Assembly (NCBI GenBank): GCA_022828125.1
Contig: JAJEJD010000012.1
Location: 257,309 to 321,308 of the forward strand
DNA length: 64,000 bases
Source: a bacterium
GTDB lineage: Bacteria > UBA8248
Direction of reading: 5' to 3'
In this document: piece after piece, positions 3,591 through 16,683 of the stretch
Layout of the letters: every line of letters begins with the position of its first letter
How positions within the stretch are numbered: the stretch's first letter is position 1
Translations under genes and position numbers: made by a program
Notes under the pieces: generated by a model
What the model was told of the DNA's origin: nothing
Seen by the model: only the letters and a program-made list of their open reading frames with translations
The model's database searches: none

Positions 3591-5465
3591 TTACGTCTGG
3601 CTTCCGGCCCATTTCTGGGAAACCAGCACGCCCGCCAGACCCAGGAACCCCAGCACGCGCAGAAGCAGCGAAGGCGTGAAGAGGAGTACGGCGGACACCC
3701 CCAGCAGGGCGCGGAGCGGCGGCGAGACGGGCGCCAGAAGATACCCCTGCAGGGCGCCGACCATGGCCAGAAAACCGAGTGTGACGCTGACGGCCGTCAG
3801 CAGCATGGGCCCAAAATTGCCCACGTCCAGGAGGTTCGTGTAGGCGAAAAGGAATGGCGTGATGAGGAGCGCGAGCGACATGCGCAGCGCCGCGTAGGCC
3901 GTCTGGTTGACGTCTGATTGCGCGATACCCGATGCCGCGAAGGCAGCTAAAGCAACCGGCGGGGTAACGCCCGAGGTGAGGATGAACCAGAAGACGACCA
4001 GGTGAGAGGCCAGAAGCGGAACGCCCAGTTGCTGCAGGGCGGGCACAGCGATGACGGAGACCACGACGTAGGCGGCCACCACCGTCATGCCCATCCCCAG
4101 GATATAGCAGACGACGCCCACGAGCGTGAGGGTGAGGAACAGGTAGCCTCCGGTGGCGTTGATGATGAAATCGCTGAACTTGATCCCAAGGCCCGTCAGC
4201 ATGATGGCGCCGATCATCAGGCCCACCACGCCGGCCGTGGCGCCCACCACCAGCGAATTCCGCGCCCCCAGCACGAGAGCGTCCAGAAGACGCTGCGGGG
4301 TCAAACGCGTCTCGCGGCGCAGAAAACTCACCACGAAGACGGAATAGATGGCCACCACGGCGGCCAGGTTGGGAGAGTGCCCCTGGATGAGGACGAAAAC
4401 CATGAGGAAGGCGGGCAGGAGCAGGTGGCCCCCGCTCATGAGAACGCTCTTCAAGGCCGGAACCTCTTCGGCCGGAACCAGGCGAATACCTTCTTTGGCC
4501 GCCTCGATATGAACGAAGAAGAGAACCGACAGGAAGTAGACCACGGCGGGAACGGTGGCGACCGCGATGACGTTCACATAGGGAATCTCCGTGATCGCCG
4601 CGATGATGAACGCGGCTGCTCCCATGATGGGCGGCATGAACTGGCCTCCCGTCGAGGCGGCCGCCTCCACCGCGCCTGCGATGTGGGGCCGGTAGCCCGT
4701 GCGCTTCATCAAGGGGATGGTGAACGACCCCGTGGCGACCACGTTGGCGACGCCGCTGCCCATCATGGAGCCCACGAAGCCGCTGGAGATGACCGCCACC
4801 TTGGCCGGTCCGCCCCGGCTGCGTCCGGCCAGGGCGTTGGCGAACTGAACCAGGAACTCTCCGCCGCCGGCCGCTTCCAGGAAGGCGGCGAAGGCGATGA
4901 ACAAAAAGACGTAGGACGCATACGCGTTGATGACCACGCCGAACACCGCCACCTCCGAAGCCATGAACTCCAGGATGCGCTGCGCGCTGAATCCCTTGTG
5001 GGCGAAGACGGTGTCCGGAAGCCAGGGACCCACGTAGGCGTAAACGATGAAGATCAGCGCCAGGATCGGCAGCACGTTTCCCAGCACCCTTCTGCCCATC
5101 TCGAGGGAGACGACGATCAGCATGCCGCCGATGACCATGTCCATCGCCGTGGGCTCGCCCATGCGTTCCGCGCGGTAGGGCGTGTCCCAGATCCAGTAAT
5201 AGGCGGCGAAGACCGTGAGCGCGATCAGCAACCAGTCGACTGCGCTGGGCCGGGTCTGCGGAGAGGAGGCGCCCGCCGGGTAGAGGAGGAAGAGGAGAAT
5301 GCCGGTGAATATCAGGTAGAACCCCCGGTGGCTGTGCGTCGAGAATATCCCGAAGGTTCCCGTGTAGATGTAAAAAAGGGAGAATACGACGGCGACCGCC
5401 ACCATCGCGTAACGCACCGCTCCTTCGAGCCGCCTCGTCTGGGGCAGTCCTGGTTGACGAGCCAT
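3591..5465 (-). CDS. TRAP transporter fused permease (DctQM fusion), TAXI type
   Basis: 624-aa membrane protein joining the small (DctQ) and large (DctM) permease parts. About residues 20-190 give four to five helices including DctQ-like MDMVIGGMLIVVSLEMGRR. The DctM part carries AGGGEFLVQFANALAGRSRGG, SGFVGSMMGSGVANVVATG and ASTGGQFMPPIMGAAAFI. An upstream ATG at 5516 is in frame, but ATG 5465 follows GAGGAGT and is the better start. The TAXI binding protein ends 87 bases upstream on the same strand; together they are a complete second transporter. Some C-terminal helices after about residue 560 may be the accessory DUF3394-like tail seen in fused TAXI permeases. Substrate unknown. Confidence 0.92.
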   Translation of the reverse strand: MARQPGLPQTRRLEGAVRYAMVAVAVVFSLFYIYTGTFGIFSTHSHRGFYLIFTGILLFLLYPAGASSPQTRPSAVDWLLIALTVFAAYYWIWDTPYRAERMGEPTAMDMVIGGMLIVVSLEMGRRVLGNVLPILALIFIVYAYVGPWLPDTVFAHKGFSAQRILEFMASEVAVFGVVINAYASYVFLFIAFAAFLEAAGGGEFLVQFANALAGRSRGGPAKVAVISSGFVGSMMGSGVANVVATGSFTIPLMKRTGYRPHIAGAVEAAASTGGQFMPPIMGAAAFIIAAITEIPYVNVIAVATVPAVVYFLSVLFFVHIEAAKEGIRLVPAEEVPALKSVLMSGGHLLLPAFLMVFVLIQGHSPNLAAVVAIYSVFVVSFLRRETRLTPQRLLDALVLGARNSLVVGATAGVVGLMIGAIMLTGLGIKFSDFIINATGGYLFLTLTLVGVVCYILGMGMTVVAAYVVVSVIAVPALQQLGVPLLASHLVVFWFILTSGVTPPVALAAFAASGIAQSDVNQTAYAALRMSLALLITPFLFAYTNLLDVGNFGPMLLTAVSVTLGFLAMVGALQGYLLAPVSPPLRALLGVSAVLLFTPSLLLRVLGFLGLAGVLVSQKWAGSQT

Positions 5466-5552
5466 CGAATCACTCCTCGGCGAGGGAGAGCCCGGGCCGC
5501 GCGGCCGATGAATCATGCCGCGAGACCCGAGCCAAATACCCGGCTTCGAGAT

Positions 5553-6551
5553 TTAGTTAATACCCTTCTCTTTCCAGTATCTGGCCGCGCCCGGGTGCAT
5601 GGGCAGACCGGACTTCTTCGCCTCCTCCACTCCGTTGGCTATCCCGCGCATCAGCCTGTGGATCTTCGGCAGCGTCTTCTTGACCTTGGGTGTGAAGACC
5701 GTCTTGACGATGTCGTAGGCGATCTTCTCGGGAACCCGCTTGTTCGCCACCCAGAAGACCGAGTTCCAAATCGTGGGGTAGGGATCCTTGATGGTCTTGA
5801 ACACCTTCGTCGGATCGTAAGTCTTCGCCCAGAATCCTGCATACGTCTTGAGGAACAACTGGCGCTGCGCCTCGCTCATGCGCACGAGGCGTAGGGGGCG
5901 CTGGGCGTCCAGCGAGAGCGTCCAGGCCGAGTGCAACCCGTTCTGGGCCGCGGCGTCGAGCGTGCCGTCGATCATGGCATTGGTCTCGTCGGCGTAGGTC
6001 AGGTACCTGATCTTTACAGTGTCCAGCAAACCGAAGGCCTTGAGGGCCATCTTGAAGTTCTTGATGCTTCCGCTGCCCGCCGGGCCGCCCGCGATGGTCT
6101 TTCCCTTCAGATCGTCGAAGGTCTTGATGCCCGATTTCTGGAGCGTAAGCACACCGAAGGGGCTGTCGTAGAATTTCATGAGCACGCGGACGTCCTTGGC
6201 CGGTTTCTTCCCCTTGAAGGAGCGGACGCCGAGATACGCCTCCGCCATGGTCGGCGCGTGGACGATGGCCATGTCCAGATCCCCGGTGGCCATGCGGCGC
6301 ACGTTCTCCACGTCGCCCTGGGTGGATTCCGCCACCACGTTGAGGTTCTTAATCTCGCGGGTCAGGATGGGCGAGAGGCCGCCCGCCATGTAGAACCAGC
6401 CGCCGCCGGGCCGGCTGCCCGCGAAGTTGAGATACACCTTGGCGGCTTCTACGGGCGCGGAACTCAAAAGGACGCCTGCGAGGGACATGGTCACCAGGCC
6501 TGTCAGGGCGACTCCACGGACGTGGAGGAGACGCCGGAGTCTGTTACGCAT
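5553..6551 (-). CDS. TAXI family TRAP transporter solute-binding protein (second copy)
   Basis: 332-aa periplasmic binding protein. ATG 6551 (MRNRLRRLLHVRG) follows AAGGAGG exactly, so the longer in-frame start at 6614 is not used. The signal peptide has a basic start, a hydrophobic core and a cleavage region near APVEA-AK. The mature protein opens VYLNFAGSRPGGGWFYMAGG, a TAXI-type glycine-rich ligand loop, and ends HPGAARYWKEKG. It pairs with the permease at 3591-5465. It is clearly a paralogue of the protein at 1410-2423 but diverged, which suggests a different ligand. Confidence 0.92.
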   Translation of the reverse strand: MRNRLRRLLHVRGVALTGLVTMSLAGVLLSSAPVEAAKVYLNFAGSRPGGGWFYMAGGLSPILTREIKNLNVVAESTQGDVENVRRMATGDLDMAIVHAPTMAEAYLGVRSFKGKKPAKDVRVLMKFYDSPFGVLTLQKSGIKTFDDLKGKTIAGGPAGSGSIKNFKMALKAFGLLDTVKIRYLTYADETNAMIDGTLDAAAQNGLHSAWTLSLDAQRPLRLVRMSEAQRQLFLKTYAGFWAKTYDPTKVFKTIKDPYPTIWNSVFWVANKRVPEKIAYDIVKTVFTPKVKKTLPKIHRLMRGIANGVEEAKKSGLPMHPGAARYWKEKGIN

Positions 6552-6959
6552 GATCCGTACCTCCTTTTGGGGGATGGAAAGAACGACCGGCGAACGGATT
6601 TTGACGCCGCTCAACCGGAGGAAACGCTACGAAATGTGGTCGGGGGAAGCGAAGACGGCGTATTGCAGATGAAAACAACGCGCATTTCGTGCCCATCGGT
6701 AGCCCTCCACAACGAGGAAAGCTGCAGCAAGGAAAGAATGATGGACCAAATATGACGTTGAATGTATGAACCTATAGTAGGCTACGGAAGGCTCGCGGCG
6801 CAAGCATGCGACCGAATCCGGTGTCGGCGCACTGGCGCTCTATGTTCGGGTGAGCCTGAGACGCTCTTTCATCTTTTCACGCGGGCGCGCGGGTGCCAGG
6901 CGATGCGGACTCATTGTACAATCGGCGAAATCGACACCTTCAATGAGAGGAGGCGCTTC
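6552..6959. other. Divergent intergenic region, no gene seen
   Basis: 408 bases between the TAXI gene (minus) and the acyl-CoA dehydrogenase-type gene (plus). Open frames here lack a ribosome site and family resemblance. It should hold both promoters, but I see no convincing -35/-10 pair or strong dyad. Confidence 0.5.
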
Positions 6960-7943
6960 GTGGATTCCCGGGTGGCTGTGGTGGGCGCAGGCATGATGGG
7001 CCACGGCATCGCCCTTCATTGCGCGATCACCGGCGCAAACGTGGCCCTGACGGACAAGGACCCGACCCGGCTCGAATCCGCCCTGGAGTGGATGGAGGGC
7101 GACCTGCGCATCCTGTGCGAATACGGCCTGGCGCCCGAGGAGACTCCCTCTCCGCTGACTGAGCGCGTATCTCTCGCCACAAGCCTGGAAGAAGCAGCGG
7201 CGCAGGCCGATTTCGTCTTCGAGGCGGTATATGAAGACCTGAGCGTCAAACAAGGCGTCTTCCGGGAACTGGACGAGCACGCCCTGCCCGGAGCCGTGCT
7301 CGCCACGACCACCTCATCGCTCCGCGTGGGAGATATCGCCAATGTCGTTTCCGAACCCGGCCGCGTACTCGGCGCTCACTGGGCGAACCCTCCGCACATT
7401 CTCCCGCTCGTGGAAGTGGTTCTCGGCCCCGCCACGAGCGAAGAGGCGCATGGCAGGCTCATCGCCTTCTTGAGAAAGGTCGGCAAGGCGCCCGTCTCTT
7501 GCCGCGACGTGGCCGGCTACATCGTGAACCGCCTGCAATACGCCATGCTGAACGAGGCCGTCAGCCTGGTGGAGCGGGGGCTCACCACGCCCGAGGACGT
7601 GGACGAGGCCGTTCGGCACGGCTTCGGAATCCGTCTGGCCTGCAAGGGACCGTTCGAATGGAACGATCTCCTCCACGACGCCGACATCACGCTGAACGTT
7701 TTCGAGAACCTCTACAGGGCCGAAGGCGACGCCAAGTTCAAACCCTCAGCGTTGTTGTTGAAGCAGATCGAGCGAGGCGAACTCGGTCTTTCCACCGGAA
7801 AGGGATGGCGCGACTATGGAGGGCGGTCGCGCGAGGAACTCATCGAGGAGAGGGATACGACCGTACTGCGAGCGGTGCGGGCCTTGCGGGAGTTGGGGAT
7901 TATCCAGGGTGCGCCAACAGACCGGACAGACCGGCCATCCTGA
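6960..7943 (+). CDS. 3-hydroxyacyl-CoA dehydrogenase family protein (L-gulonate/carnitine dehydrogenase-like)
   Basis: NAD-dependent dehydrogenase of 327 aa. The Rossmann motif VAVVGAGMMGHGIA lies at the N-terminus, followed by the acidic NAD-selecting residue in LTDKD. Catalytic-region motifs are visible: TTTSSL, the His in GAHWANPP, and IVNRLQYAMLNEAVSLVERG with the conserved Asn. The C-terminal helical domain (PEDVDEAVRHGFGIR... GPFEWNDL) matches short stand-alone members such as carnitine, gulonate and 3-hydroxybutyryl-CoA dehydrogenases. GTG 6960 is chosen because GAGAGGAGG precedes it; the frame is open further upstream without a site. It stands alone, divergent from the TAXI system. 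The substrate is unresolved. Confidence 0.85.
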   Translation: MDSRVAVVGAGMMGHGIALHCAITGANVALTDKDPTRLESALEWMEGDLRILCEYGLAPEETPSPLTERVSLATSLEEAAAQADFVFEAVYEDLSVKQGVFRELDEHALPGAVLATTTSSLRVGDIANVVSEPGRVLGAHWANPPHILPLVEVVLGPATSEEAHGRLIAFLRKVGKAPVSCRDVAGYIVNRLQYAMLNEAVSLVERGLTTPEDVDEAVRHGFGIRLACKGPFEWNDLLHDADITLNVFENLYRAEGDAKFKPSALLLKQIERGELGLSTGKGWRDYGGRSREELIEERDTTVLRAVRALRELGIIQGAPTDRTDRPS

Positions 7944-7969
7944 AAAACACCCGATCCGTTACAAAATCA

Positions 7970-9505
7970 TCACGCATCTTCATCCTCGACAAAGCGCACC
8001 TCGGGTTCCAGCCCCATCAGAGCGGCCAGGGCCTCGAAGCGGCGCACGACAACCTCGCCCAGCATGTTTTGGTCGCTCCGGCGGCACTTGAGCTTGAGCG
8101 CGCCCCGTCGCAGGGAGGGCTTGAGCGAAAAGCGCCCCAGCACCCCGGGCGCGCCGCCGCACAAGGTTTCGCCCAGGCGAACGGCCGAGCCCATGATTCG
8201 CGCGCGACCGGCGGTTTCCTCGTCCAGCAGCCTCTCGACGGTGCGCAACTCGCCGCGGGTCTCGCGGCCCGTATAACGGCTGAAGACGGCCAGCGCGAGA
8301 AACACCCGCTCCTGGTGATTGACGTGCAGGGTGCGCGCATGCAGCACCTCCGCGCTGGCCTGGGCGGCCCGATAGTCGGGGTGCACCCGCCAGCCGACGT
8401 CGCTGAGCAGGCAGACGGCGTGGCGCAGGCGGCGCTCGGACCCGCTTTCTTCGGGAAAAAGGTTTTCCGTCCACTCGAGCAGTTCGGGGACGTGATCGGG
8501 AAAGCGCGCGGTGCGGGCATGGATGTCGCCCACCGCGCTGAGCAGCGGGTCCTCGTTCCTGCCTCGCTCGCCCAGGCACGCAAAGGTGAGCCCCTCGCGC
8601 AAACCGTGCGCGGAGAATACGACGTCGCGGGGCGCGGCGTCCGCCAGCAAACGGTCCATCACCAGCGCCGCGAGCGGCAGCAAATCGAGCCTCCTGTTCG
8701 AAACGCCGCGTATGCCCGACAACGATTCGCGGCTCTGGCGGGAGATCAGGTCGGTGATTTTCGCAAGGTCGCCGCGCCGCAGCCGATAATGGTGAATGAT
8801 GTTGAGCGGATAGCCCGAATGCGCCATGTGGGCATGCGCCAAAGCCCGCCAGTTGCCGCCGACGGCGTAGAAAGCGCGCCCCCGCATTTTGGCGAGCCAG
8901 GACAACCCGGCCAAAGCTTCGTCGATAATCTTCCGCGCGCGCTTGCGCTGGCCGCCCGAGGCGGCGAAGAGGTTGAGCGGCCCCAGAGGCAGGGTGGCCT
9001 GCTCGGCGATGACACCATCAACCAGATGGACCAACTCTAAGCTGCCGCCGCCCAAATCGCCCACGACGCCGTCCGCCCCCGGTATTCCGCTCAACACGCC
9101 GAGCGCAGCCATTTCGGCTTCTTCAGCGCCCGAGAGCACGCGCACGCGGAAACCGCAACGCCGCTCCACTTCTGCGGCGAACCCGGCCCCGTCCTCGGCG
9201 TCGCGCACCGCCGCGGTGGCGATGGCGTCGAAGCGCGCCACCCCCATTGCGCGCAACAGGCTGCCGAACCGCTCGATGTTCAGGAGCGCCCCCTCGACGC
9301 CTTGCGGATCGAGCCGTCCGGTGTCGTGCAGACCGCGGCCCAGGCCGCACAGGATTCTTTCGTTGAACATGGGGAGCGGCGCGCGCGACAATCCCTCGAA
9401 CACGACCAGACGGATCGAGTTGGAACCAATGTCGATTACGCCATAACGTTCTTGAGAGCCGGTCGCCTCTTCGGCGAGGCATGGTCGTTCAGCCGTCTTC
9501 CGCAA
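7970..9505 (-). CDS. ppx: Exopolyphosphatase / guanosine pentaphosphatase family (Ppx/GppA)
   Basis: 511-aa cytoplasmic enzyme of the ASKHA fold that hydrolyses inorganic polyphosphate ends or pppGpp. The first phosphate loop is [17 protein letters not shown], the second DLGGGSLEL, with VDGVIAE between. The C-terminal half looks like the HD-type helical domain found in long Ppx proteins ([28 protein letters not shown]). The start overlaps the end of ppk1 by 17 bases on the same strand, so the two genes are translationally coupled. Having kinase and phosphatase together argues for polyphosphate turnover rather than only pppGpp hydrolysis. Confidence 0.93.
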
Positions 9506-12014: not shown

Positions 12015-13526
12015 ATGCAAACGAGACCGAACGTCCTCTTGATCAACACCGACCACTGGTCCTCGCCCCTCCTGGGGGCGGCAGGGCATCCCTGCATCCT
12101 GACGCCGACGCTCGACACCTTCTGCAAGAACGGCGTGCGCTTCACGAACGCCTATTCCGAACACCCCTTCTGCATCCCGGCGAGGCGGACGCTGATGACC
12201 GGCGCCAGCGCCCGCGCGCACGGCGACCGCGTGTTCAGCCCGACGATGCTGATGCCCGACCACCTGCCGACGATGGCGCAGACCTTCCGCGACGCGGGCT
12301 ACCAAGCCTACGCGGTCGGGAAGATCCACGTCTATCCCCAGCGCGACCGCATCGGCTTCGACGACGTGATTCTCGACGACGAGGGCCGCTCGATCTACAA
12401 CGTCGCCGACGATTACGACATTTATCTCGGCGACATCGGCCACACGGGCCGCCAGTTCGACCACGGCATGGGGAACAACCAGTACACCTACCGGGCGTGG
12501 CATCTGCCTGAGGCGACGCACCCCACGAACTGGACGACCCGCATGATGGCGCGAACCATAAAGCGGCGCGACCCGAGGCGGCCGGCCTTCTGGTACCTCT
12601 CCTACCGCCATCCGCACCCGCCGCTCGTGCCGCTGCAGGCCTATCTGGACATCTACCGCGAGATTCCCATCGATGAGCCGTTCGTGGGCGAGTGGGCGCG
12701 CGATCGCGGCGAACTCCCCTACAACGCGCAGGCCACCCAGTCGCGCGGCGACCTCTACAATGAGGGGGCGGTTATCGACGCGCGCCGGGCGTTCTACGCG
12801 CTGTGCACCCACATCGAGCACCAGATACGCATCATCATCGGCACCCTGCGCGAGGAGAGCCTCACCAACGACACCATCATCTGCTTCACCTCCGACCACG
12901 GCGACATGCTCGGCAACCACGGCATGTGGGCCAAGCGCGTCTTCTACGAGTATTCCGCCGGAATCCCGATGATCCTGGTGGGCCTCCCGGACGATGCGCG
13001 CGTAGGCAATAACCGGGTCGACGACCGCCTCGTGGGACTTCAGGATGTGATGCCCACCCTGCTCGATCTGTGCGGCATCGATATCCCCGAGACGGTGGAG
13101 GGCATCTCGATGGTGGGCGAGGAGAGGCGGGAATTCCTCTTCGGCGAGGCGGGCGAGGACGCGCATTCCTCGCGCATGATCCACGACGGACGCCACAAAC
13201 TCATCTACTACCCGGTCGGGCATTACTTCCAGCTCTTCGATTTAGCAGAAGACCCGAATGAAATGGTGGATCTCTTCAGAGACCCCGCCTACGCCGACGT
13301 GCTCGCCCGGCTGACCGAAACGCTGGAGGGGCAGATGTACGGAAGCGACGAGAAATGGCTGGATGACGGAAAGCTCGTCGGCGAGCCGGCCCGGCGGTTC
13401 CAGCCCGGCCCCGACCGCACGCTGTCCGCCATGCGGGGAGACCAGTGGCCCTTCCCGCCCGCCACCGAAGAAGGTTTTCTCGAATGGTTCCCGGAGACGA
13501 AGAGCGAGGAGGGTGGAGGTTGTTGA
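12015..13526 (+). CDS. Sulfatase (Cys-type, formylglycine-dependent)
   Basis: 503-aa alkaline-phosphatase-superfamily hydrolase. The activation motif C-x-P-x-R is present as CIPAR at Cys53, so an FGE maturase would convert that Cys to formylglycine. Metal-site pieces include NTDHW near the N-terminus, VGKIHVYP, and TSDHGDMLGNHGMWAK. No signal peptide is visible, so it is probably cytoplasmic; substrates may be sulfate esters or phosphonate monoesters as in related choline-sulfatase/PMH-like enzymes. ATG follows GGAGAG. The last codons, GAG GAG GGT GGA GGT TGT TGA, run into the TGTTGAAAAA border of a repeat element, which supplies the stop; the original C-terminus may be altered. Confidence 0.9.
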   Translation: MQTRPNVLLINTDHWSSPLLGAAGHPCILTPTLDTFCKNGVRFTNAYSEHPFCIPARRTLMTGASARAHGDRVFSPTMLMPDHLPTMAQTFRDAGYQAYAVGKIHVYPQRDRIGFDDVILDDEGRSIYNVADDYDIYLGDIGHTGRQFDHGMGNNQYTYRAWHLPEATHPTNWTTRMMARTIKRRDPRRPAFWYLSYRHPHPPLVPLQAYLDIYREIPIDEPFVGEWARDRGELPYNAQATQSRGDLYNEGAVIDARRAFYALCTHIEHQIRIIIGTLREESLTNDTIICFTSDHGDMLGNHGMWAKRVFYEYSAGIPMILVGLPDDARVGNNRVDDRLVGLQDVMPTLLDLCGIDIPETVEGISMVGEERREFLFGEAGEDAHSSRMIHDGRHKLIYYPVGHYFQLFDLAEDPNEMVDLFRDPAYADVLARLTETLEGQMYGSDEKWLDDGKLVGEPARRFQPGPDRTLSAMRGDQWPFPPATEEGFLEWFPETKSEEGGGC

Positions 13527-13803
13527 AAAACCCTTATTCCGTAATTCGGCATATGGGCCGCCAAGGGAGGAAGAAGACAACATTCCCCTCTGTAGAGCAT
13601 TTAACAATCACTCCCCCCTTGAGGGGGAGTCGATGAAGCCGAACGGTTTGTGCGAAGGCTGAATCGGTGGGGGGTGAATCGCGTTTTATCGCCATTCCGA
13701 ATTATACCCCCCACCGGTTCGCTTGCGGGCTTACGCCCTTAGCTCACCGACTCCCCCTCAAGGGGGGAGTGATTTAGTCCGACCCACAAGGGCTTTTTCA
13801 ACA
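13521..13803. repeat. Composite palindromic element bounded by TGTTGAAAAA/TTTTTCAACA
   Basis: Left border TGTTGAAAAACCC (13521-13533) and right border GGGCTTTTTCAACA (13790-13803) are inverted repeats. Between them is a complete 160-bp inner element (13611-13770) plus a purine-rich spacer. Same-type borders recur at 16520-16532, 16628-16640, 23276-23288, 47393-47613, 53782-53955 and 60991-61003. No transposase lies inside, so this is a non-autonomous, MITE-like or REP-like unit. It overlaps the sulfatase stop codon. Confidence 0.75.
13611..13770. repeat. 160-bp inner element, copy 1 (reverse orientation)
   Basis: Ends CTCCCCCCTTGAGGGGGAGT and CTCCCCCTCAAGGGGGGAGT are each palindromic and inverted to one another. 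The interior (GAATCGGTGGGGGG, ATTTTATCGCCATTCCGAAT) matches the copies at 47422-47580 and 60791-60950 but in the opposite orientation. Noncoding; no frame is conserved among copies. Confidence 0.85.
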
Positions 13804-13811
13804 GGCCCGAG

Positions 13812-13872
13812 CCGGCGGGAGTGCGAACCCGCCTCCGCTAGGCTTCCGTCGCGAGCGTCTACGCGCGCCTAG
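13812..13872 (-). repeat. Degenerate copy of the tmRNA 3' end (possible att remnant)
   Basis: These 61 bases match 14742-14799, the last part of the tmRNA gene, at about 90 percent by eye in the same orientation. Shared blocks include CGGCGGGA, CGAACCCGC and AGGCTTCCGTCG, then GAGCGTCTACGCGCG. The copy lacks the CCA end and has a one-base insertion in the T loop, so it is not functional. The stop codon of the NYN gene (13869-13871) lies at its inner edge. Confidence 0.8.
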
Positions 13873-14684
13873 TCATCGAGTTGCGCGCTCTTCACGATGT
13901 ATCCGCCGGATTTTTTGTCGAACTCCAGTTCCAGCATCCCGCGGGCTTTCGCGTCTTCGAGCAAGTGCTTGAACGTCTTGTATCCGTGATAGGACTCGCT
14001 GAATCCCGGCTTGCGGCGTTTCAGGGCCTGTTTCACCATCGATCCCCAGACCTTTTCTTCCTCGCCCCGCTCCCGCGACAGGTCCTCGGTCGTCTCCAGG
14101 ACCAGATTGAGCCCTTCCAGCCGTTTTTCCTCTTCGCCGTCGACGACTTTCTTTCTTCCGGCGCGGGCGGCCGGCCGTTTCCGTTTGGCCTTTCCCTGCT
14201 TTTCGGATTCGCGCATCAAGTCTTCGTAATAGATGAACTCGTCGCAGTTCGAGGTCAGCAAGTCGGAGGTCGAGTTCTTCACGCCGACGCCGACGACCGC
14301 CTTGTTGTTCTCGCGGAGCTTGCTGACCAAAGGCGAAAAATCGGAGTCGCCGCTGATGATCACGAAGGTATCGACGTGCGACTTGGTGTAGCAGAGGTCC
14401 AACGCATCGACGACCATGCGAATGTCGGCGGAGTTCTTGCCGGACCTGCGGACGTGCGGTATTTCGATCAACTCGAAGGCCGCCTCGTGCATGGGCGCCT
14501 TGAACTCCTTGTAGCGCGCCCAATTGCAGTAGGCTTTCTTGACGACAATGCTGCCCCTGAGGAGCAAGCGCTCCAGCACTCTTTGGATATCGAAATCCGC
14601 GTACTTGGCGTCGCGCACGCCCAGGGCGATATTTTCGAAATCACAAAACAGCGCCATGTTCTGAATCGTGCTTTTTTCGGTCAT
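13869..14684 (-). CDS. NYN domain (PIN-like) ribonuclease-type protein with C-terminal LOTUS/OST-HTH-like domain
   Basis: 271 aa. The NYN domain occupies about residues 10-155 with the acidic residues expected for a PIN-like nuclease: ALFCDFENI, SADIRMVVDAL and ISGDSDFSPL. A basic linker (KRKRPAARAGRKK) follows, then a helical C-terminal domain of about 80 residues (VKQALKRRKPGFSE, YHGYKTFKHLLEDAK) resembling OST-HTH/LOTUS RNA-binding domains. ATG 14684 (MTEKSTIQN) is the start; the longer frame upstream runs through the tmRNA gene and is spurious. It is flanked by the tmRNA gene on one side and a damaged copy of the tmRNA 3' end on the other, suggesting arrival on a small integrating element. 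Likely RNA target unknown. Confidence 0.85.
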   Translation of the reverse strand: MTEKSTIQNMALFCDFENIALGVRDAKYADFDIQRVLERLLLRGSIVVKKAYCNWARYKEFKAPMHEAAFELIEIPHVRRSGKNSADIRMVVDALDLCYTKSHVDTFVIISGDSDFSPLVSKLRENNKAVVGVGVKNSTSDLLTSNCDEFIYYEDLMRESEKQGKAKRKRPAARAGRKKVVDGEEEKRLEGLNLVLETTEDLSRERGEEEKVWGSMVKQALKRRKPGFSESYHGYKTFKHLLEDAKARGMLELEFDKKSGGYIVKSAQLDD

Positions 14685-14733
14685 TTGAACTCCCGTCCGG
14701 GCGGCGGCGCACCGCGCCGCGAGTATTGTCATC

Positions 14734-15094
14734 TGGTGGAGGCGGCGGGAATCGAACCCGCGTCCGAAAGGCTTCCGTCGTGAGCGTCTACGCGCGTAGC
14801 CGGTGGTGAGGGTTTCGCCCGGTCTCAAGCCCACCGGCGGGCCATCCTCCGGGCTAGTCCGATTCAAATTCGCCTAGCAGGCTCCGGACCGAAACCTGGG
14901 TCGGCTAGTCCGCATCATGACGTTCCACACCCCGCCCGCGGACGAGGAGAGGGGGAACGCTCGCTAGCGTCTAGGCCGCGAGAGCCAGCTCGTTATCGGC
15001 TGGTGTGATTTTGCCACATTGATAACGGGGCCAAGTGGCGTCCCCGGCGCGCAGCTCAGACTTCAAATCCTCCCGTCGAAACCGGATCGCCCCC
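14734..15094 (-). ncRNA. ssrA: Transfer-messenger RNA (tmRNA)
   Basis: 361 nt, rescuing stalled ribosomes with SmpB. The 5' end GGGGGCGATCCGGTTTCGAC is the classic tmRNA opening. The 3' end is a T arm (GCGGGTTCGATTCCCGC) followed by CGCCTCC and ACCA. Acceptor strands GGGGGCG and CGCCTCC pair with a G3-U pair, the alanine identity element. The tag frame lies at 14971-15015 and reads GKITPADNELALAA before TAG, with the LAA-type protease-recognised end. The smpB gene is upstream on the same strand with one small gene between. Confidence 0.97.
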
Positions 15095-15958: not shown

Positions 15959-16640
15959 TGTAGAAAAAATCCCCCTCCTCAGGGGATAAAGGCAACCCCC
16001 CCTACCCCCCCTTGTCAGGGGGGTATAAAAAGGCGATGCGCCCCCGCCGGGCTGAGGGGGTTTTGCTTTTTCTTGCCCCCCTGTTAAGGGGGGGTAGGGG
16101 GGGTTGGTTTTCAAGGCGAGTAGAGCGTGCCGAATCCGCCTTTGGCCGTCATTCCGGCGAAAGCCGGAATCCATTTTCGCCTTTGCCTTTTCGCCTCCTC
16201 GCTCGGACGTCTTTACTCCCAGGCGGAGAGGAGCAGAATCGAACACAAAAACGAAAGGCGAATCCTCTGCATTCCGCATCCAGACGCCGCGCGACAACAA
16301 GGTCGTGGCCGCCCCGCCCGATGAAAAGTCAAAATGGATTCCGGCTTTCGCCGGAATGACGAACAAAACCACACCGCCTCATCCTGAGTAGCGGCGAAGC
16401 CGCGTATCGAAGGATGCCCTCTCGCCACGGCGCGAGCCTCCTCGCCCTTCGATACGCCGCCTTCGGCGGCTACTCAGGGTGAGGAAAGAGGTGTCAGCGG
16501 TTTCCAAAGGACACATACAGGGCTTTTTAACAGCCCCTTGGGGGGGAGTGATTGGTTGGCGCTCTGCAAGGGATGAGTAAAGTTTCATCCCTCCCCGGTC
16601 GGCTACATATCTTGAATCACGAAATCCGGCTTTTTCAACA
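15959..16640. repeat. Cluster of four dispersed-repeat families, no gene
   Basis: Fills almost all of the 860-base gap before rnr. Contents in order: a worn TTGTAGAAAAAATCC border; a C/G-run element at 15992-16107; inverted ATTCCGGC-GAAA-GCCGGAAT units at 16148-16173 and 16335-16360; a CCTCATCCTGAGTAG...TATCGAAGG unit at 16377-16416 and its inverted mate at 16444-16484; then right borders GGGCTTTTTAACA (16520-16532) and GGCTTTTTCAACA (16628-16640). Open frames here only reflect repeat sequence. Confidence 0.8.
15992..16107. repeat. C/G-run palindromic element, copy A
   Basis: Starts CAACCCCCCCTACCCCCCC and ends with the inverted form GGGGGGGTAGGGGGGGTTG, with a partly conserved interior of about 70 bases (CGCCCCCGCCGGGCTGAGG). 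Other copies: 49756-49872, 53807-53924, a short form at 36435-36480, and split halves at 60726-60759 and 61005-61102. Confidence 0.85.
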
Positions 16641-16683
16641 AGCCCATAAGGGCTGAGAATTTAAACTCAGGCGTTTTTGATCC

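Follow-up and report, generated by a model that had tools for sequence, protein, structure and literature searches.

In the window, a 64,000-nucleotide stretch of a bacterial genome, the tmRNA gene ssrA is followed by a single foreign gene for a NYN-domain protein and then by a decayed copy of the 3′ end of ssrA itself. We suggest that this is what remains of a genomic island. A tyrosine recombinase would have inserted the island at ssrA, its other genes would later have been lost, the NYN gene was kept and the distal site is decaying. We consider this course of events probable.

The ssrA locus and its duplicated 3′ end

The tmRNA gene is located on the minus strand at positions 15094–14734. 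It encodes the tag ADNELALAA, is called complete by both ARAGORN and Rfam (RF00023, 165 bits, E = 2e-65) and is the only tmRNA gene in the window. The last 66 nt of ssrA match positions 13867–13809 on the same strand with 88% identity over 59 columns and one gap (blastn, E about 3e-15); the ungapped core of 44 nt is 91% identical. As this 66-nt tail matches only two places in the whole genome, the ssrA end and the distal copy, the duplicate is real and not a chance similarity. The original prediction had placed a NYN gene between the tmRNA and a decayed copy of the tmRNA 3′ end, in the same orientation and with roughly 90% identity. The ARAGORN and Rfam calls, the blastn repeat and the position of the NYN open reading frame confirm this layout, and the repeat coordinates were right to within a few bases.

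All parts of the unit lie on the minus strand. The proximal copy comprises the last 63 nt of ssrA (14734–14796), and the repeat is exactly the 3′-terminal part of the gene, up to the CCA. A leader of 49 nt (14685–14733), in which a GC hairpin and the ribosome-binding site GGGAG are located, then leads to the ATG of the NYN gene (13869–14684, 271 aa, protein P0001). A longer version of the reading frame with a TTG start extends back into the tmRNA gene; homologues, however, begin at the ATG at 14684. The stop codon is only 2–3 nt away from the distal copy (13809–13867). This copy lacks the CCA in the window genome, and a tRNA-like fold is not possible for it, as the 5′ half of the acceptor stem is missing. 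The span from repeat to repeat is 0.93 kb and contains the NYN gene as its sole open reading frame. As had been claimed from the sequence, there is thus one cargo gene and no integrase between the two copies in the window. Neither an integrase nor an integrase remnant is present inside any copy of the unit in the genus.

The distal copy is abutted and truncated by a MITE-like element at 13522–13803 with terminal inverted repeats of 13–14 nt (TGTTGAAAAA(G)CCC; TGTTGAAAAACCC at 13522 and GGGCTTTTTCAACA at 13790–13803) and an inner inverted repeat of 31 nt. Related ends are seen again at 16520–16537 and 16628–16645, and the element supplies the stop codon of the neighbouring sulfatase reading frame.

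We compared the window genome (G000) with six congeners (G001–G006), of which G006 has an unassembled ssrA. The NYN gene is found about 50 bp behind ssrA in G001, G002, G003 and G005, in the last of these broken by an assembly gap of N. Both copies of the ssrA tail are seen in four genomes of the genus with 88–98% identity. The distal copy is best preserved in G001 (98% over 63 nt, with CCA), followed by G005 (94%), G002 (89%, CCA kept) and the window genome (88%). In G003 the NYN gene is kept and the distal copy is gone; dispersed repeats begin just past the NYN stop codon. Of the four distal copies, those of G000, G002 and G005 have an extra base in the T-loop in common, which points to a single event with inheritance in place.

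G004 is the only congener with an assembled ssrA locus that lacks the NYN gene, and it lacks the duplicate as well. Directly after the tmRNA CCA it carries an insert of 1.17 kb with 33–37% G+C (L062, 3229–4396), which has two small coiled-coil/membrane reading frames and extends into the beginning of a hicB-like gene; G001 and G002 have this gene behind the distal copy. The insert has no relatives in the other family genomes, in phages, in viral contigs or in PHROGs. With the NYN unit in the carriers and a different AT-rich insert in G004, the ssrA site took up foreign DNA at least twice. A clean empty ssrA site was not seen in the genus, the site of G004 being filled by the other insert. Trees of ssrA-linked genes place G004 outside the carriers (support 68/95 and 93/96), but adding unlinked genes rejects this placement (p-AU 3e-7), so that linked and unlinked genes conflict over whether the NYN gene was gained after the split of G004 or lost in G004. 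As a further feature of the locus, a HicA-toxin-like protein (PF07927) is encoded together with a HicB-like partner downstream of ssrA in several congeners (L063, L064, L065); this pair is missing here in the window.

The NYN gene, its product and its origin

P0001 matches the NYN family PF01936 with 126.5 bits (E = 1.5e-36; Pfam cut-off 24.2 bits), and the acidic residues D15, D87, D93, D113 and D115 are invariant in an alignment of 42 sequences. In a structure model (AlphaFold2 on 42 aligned sequences, mean pLDDT 78) the closest solved folds of the NYN domain are 2qip (Z 20.8) and the NYN domains of MARF1 (Z 18–19). The C-terminus is modelled as a winged-helix domain with a modest match to the LOTUS domain of TDRD7 (Z 7.3), among other winged helices. 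As Pfam has no match for this domain, LOTUS/OST-HTH included, its resemblance to LOTUS is suggestive only. P0001 thus shares the NYN fold, the invariant acidic residues and a winged-helix/LOTUS-type C-terminal domain with the NYN RNases and animal MARF1. Unlike MARF1, it is a bacterial two-domain protein without RRMs. Judging from family and fold, P0001 is most likely a metal-dependent RNA endonuclease with a C-terminal domain that aids RNA binding. RNA cleavage has been reported for human MARF1 (PMC6294520), and for P0001 this role is deduced from membership in the NYN family.

The closest proteins to the NYN proteins of the genus are from Pseudomonadota (L077 with 84% and L078 with 79% identity, then a long series at 70–78%, and 65–84% overall), whereas the NYN proteins of its own family reach only 50–55%. 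In the tree, the genus groups with L077 and L078 (support 99) inside a large, mostly pseudomonadotal clade (support 100), apart from the NYN proteins of the family. DNA homology to L077 spans from 8 nt upstream of the ATG to 3 nt past the stop codon. The tree hence indicates that the gene is foreign and was acquired from a proteobacterium.

Other genera of the family have a native NYN gene in a conserved row, with a gene judged BatA-like by eye in front of it and a conserved gene of 280 aa behind it. In our genus these two neighbours are about 350 bp apart, compared with about 1,500 bp in the other genera, and no remnant of a native NYN gene was found between them. By this comparison the native gene was lost from its usual place. 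At that place (L214, L212, L217) there is a GC-rich intergenic block of about 100–130 nt which is strongly conserved in the genus; it has no Rfam match and may represent a structured RNA or else a dispersed element. As the native gene is gone and most members carry an alien one at ssrA, we read the change as a xenologous replacement or a re-supply of the function. In G004 (79% complete) neither version seems to be present, and the native place is assembled there and holds no NYN gene; the gene is therefore probably not essential.

Between carriers the dN/dS of the NYN gene is 0.014–0.091, a pattern of substitutions that indicates purifying selection. For this reason we regard the gene as useful to the host. 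The far attachment site is not kept: across the same genomes it has decayed to the point of absence while the protein hardly changes.

Probable integration at ssrA and the competing explanations

In sister genera the region downstream of ssrA encodes a tyrosine recombinase (379 aa; Phage_integrase, E = 1e-32) and an excisionase-like HTH_17 protein, with the 3′ end of the recombinase gene about 10 nt from the 3′ end of the tmRNA. The recombinase gene is intact in G013 and frameshifted in G015; in G012 only the part for the C-terminal 93 residues remains. Integrase-bearing forms of the locus, which the original prediction proposed to look for, do exist. With such integrases beside it, the tmRNA 3′ end is a used integration target in this family. 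Integrases with 75–83% identity to the ssrA type adjoin tRNA-Gly(GCC) in G011 and G017, and the T-arm of this tRNA resembles that of the tmRNA. The G011 locus (L201, about 3700–9145), with its integrase and a primase-like reading frame of 739 aa, looks like a complete small integrative element. The ssrA-type integrase is absent from the window genome and from every other NYN-carrier genome of the genus; the tyrosine recombinases of the carriers share only about 30–40% identity with it, and up to 48% in short pieces. Tandem pairs of tyrosine recombinases are frequent in the genus (for example G000 C19:328813–330908 and C9:77513–79578; 29 matches in G002) and recall recombinase-in-trio elements.

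We suggest that the locus arose in the following steps. In an ancestor of most of the genus, a tyrosine recombinase would have put a genomic island into the 3′ end of ssrA; since the copies of the unit hold neither an integrase nor a remnant, this enzyme is postulated from the sister genera. By the standard tDNA mechanism the island's own copy of the 3′ end would have regenerated ssrA, and the original 63-nt end of the host would have moved to the far side. The island would have brought the gene for the NYN-LOTUS type RNase, of pseudomonadotal origin according to the tree, and probably re-supplied the NYN function after loss of the native gene. Later the integrase and all other island genes would have been deleted, leaving the 0.93 kb with leader, NYN gene and far attachment site. 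The latter decays by substitution and by insertion of the MITE-like element, and the NYN gene is retained by purifying selection.

Three findings support this stripped island: G004 lacks both gene and duplicate, sister genera have integrases at this site, and the combination of NYN gene and duplicate does not occur outside the genus. A search for distant relatives with both at the same place, which would have spoken against the island, found none; in other genera the NYN gene lies elsewhere and without the duplicate. Against a stripped island speak the missing integrase, the lack of a clean empty site in the genus and the tight packing around one gene; random deletion would produce such packing only by chance or under selection.

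One rival explanation is a minimal element without an integrase, in which the NYN gene sits between two ssrA attachment sites and is moved in trans by the integrase of another element, that is, a cis-mobilizable unit. The unit does have two attachment sites and no integrase of its own. It is tightly packed, with 2–3 nt between stop codon and attachment copy and 49 nt between ssrA and the ATG. In G001 the two sites have 98% identity over 63 nt, and ssrA-type integrases exist in the family. But the unit is known from one location only, no carrier genome has an ssrA-type integrase, the sites decay, and the history of the NYN gene within the genus looks vertical as far as can be told. Viral contigs contain neither NYN relatives nor the exact tmRNA tail, and in phage records the NYN matches are partial and below 35%. 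Plasmids have NYN matches of 61–65% (Caballeronia, Eleftheria); of two viewed in context one is near an integrase and transposases and neither is at a tmRNA. A scan of 78 NYN loci for flanking repeats found a strong repeat outside the genus at L088 (Mariprofundales) only. There the NYN gene lies between copies (830–952 and 2362–2484) of a hairpin-rich dispersed repeat of 123 nt. As a third copy is inverted and the repeat is MITE-like, we rejected these copies as attachment sites. At L091 a tRNA-Leu was likewise rejected, as it lies downstream with its 5′ end towards the NYN gene. Thus, the close NYN relatives examined outside the genus show neither an attachment-type tRNA or tmRNA nor flanking repeats of the ssrA-tail kind. 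We therefore consider such a mobile unit unlikely. Slightly less likely still is the notion that leader, RNase gene and a tmRNA-derived attachment site at the stop codon act like a gene cassette that is mobilized at ssrA by the integrases of other elements; the tight packing is its sole basis. The original prediction had left open whether the locus is a stripped island or an unusual small integrating unit. We favour the stripped island; the second option found no positive support.

About as improbable as the trans-mobilized unit is an origin without site-specific recombination, in which a break beside ssrA took up a foreign NYN gene and template-switch repair placed a copy of 63 nt of the ssrA 3′ end on the far side. 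The unit lacks an integrase, and a short GGCG-type microhomology at the junction of NYN stop codon and repeat is also present in the donor-like gene L077. The repeat, however, is precisely the segment that tDNA integrases usually target, and the site has integrases in sister genera and another foreign insert in G004. It is very improbable that the second copy serves the NYN mRNA, for instance as its 3′ end or as a processing signal. It does come directly after the stop codon in all carriers but one, but it decays beside a nearly constant protein, is absent from G003, which keeps the gene, and cannot adopt a tRNA-like fold.

Relation to known islands

The Islander catalogue lists islands in tDNA and ssrA with a length of 2–200 kb and leaves out candidates that are shorter than 2 kb or have no integrase (PMC4383910). 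As in its islands, the tmRNA gene is intact and regenerated, a 3′ fragment with the same orientation is displaced downstream, the DNA between the two is foreign and tyrosine recombinases are present at the site in sister genera. Unlike them, the unit has no integrase and a length of only 0.93 kb, and we therefore file it as an island relic and not as an active island. In Dehalococcoides, the cargo is likewise flanked by ssrA and by direct repeats of its 3′ end, and some of these units have no integration module; they are thought to be moved in trans ('cis-mobilizable') or to be fixed (PMC3146451). Those islands use a serine recombinase, a 20-bp repeat and a much larger cargo, whereas here the ssrA enzyme of the family is a tyrosine recombinase, the repeat has 63 nt and the cargo is one gene. 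On this reading the NYN unit is ordinary island biology.

Such remnants are probably undercounted, as standard island finders reject them by size and missing integrase; scans for tmRNA fragments without these filters would recover them. As a worked example, the locus shows how an ssrA island comes to its end, with loss of the mobility genes, decay of the far site and one useful gene still under selection. It would also be a case of xenologous replacement, in which a genus without its native NYN RNase bears a proteobacterial one in an island relic.
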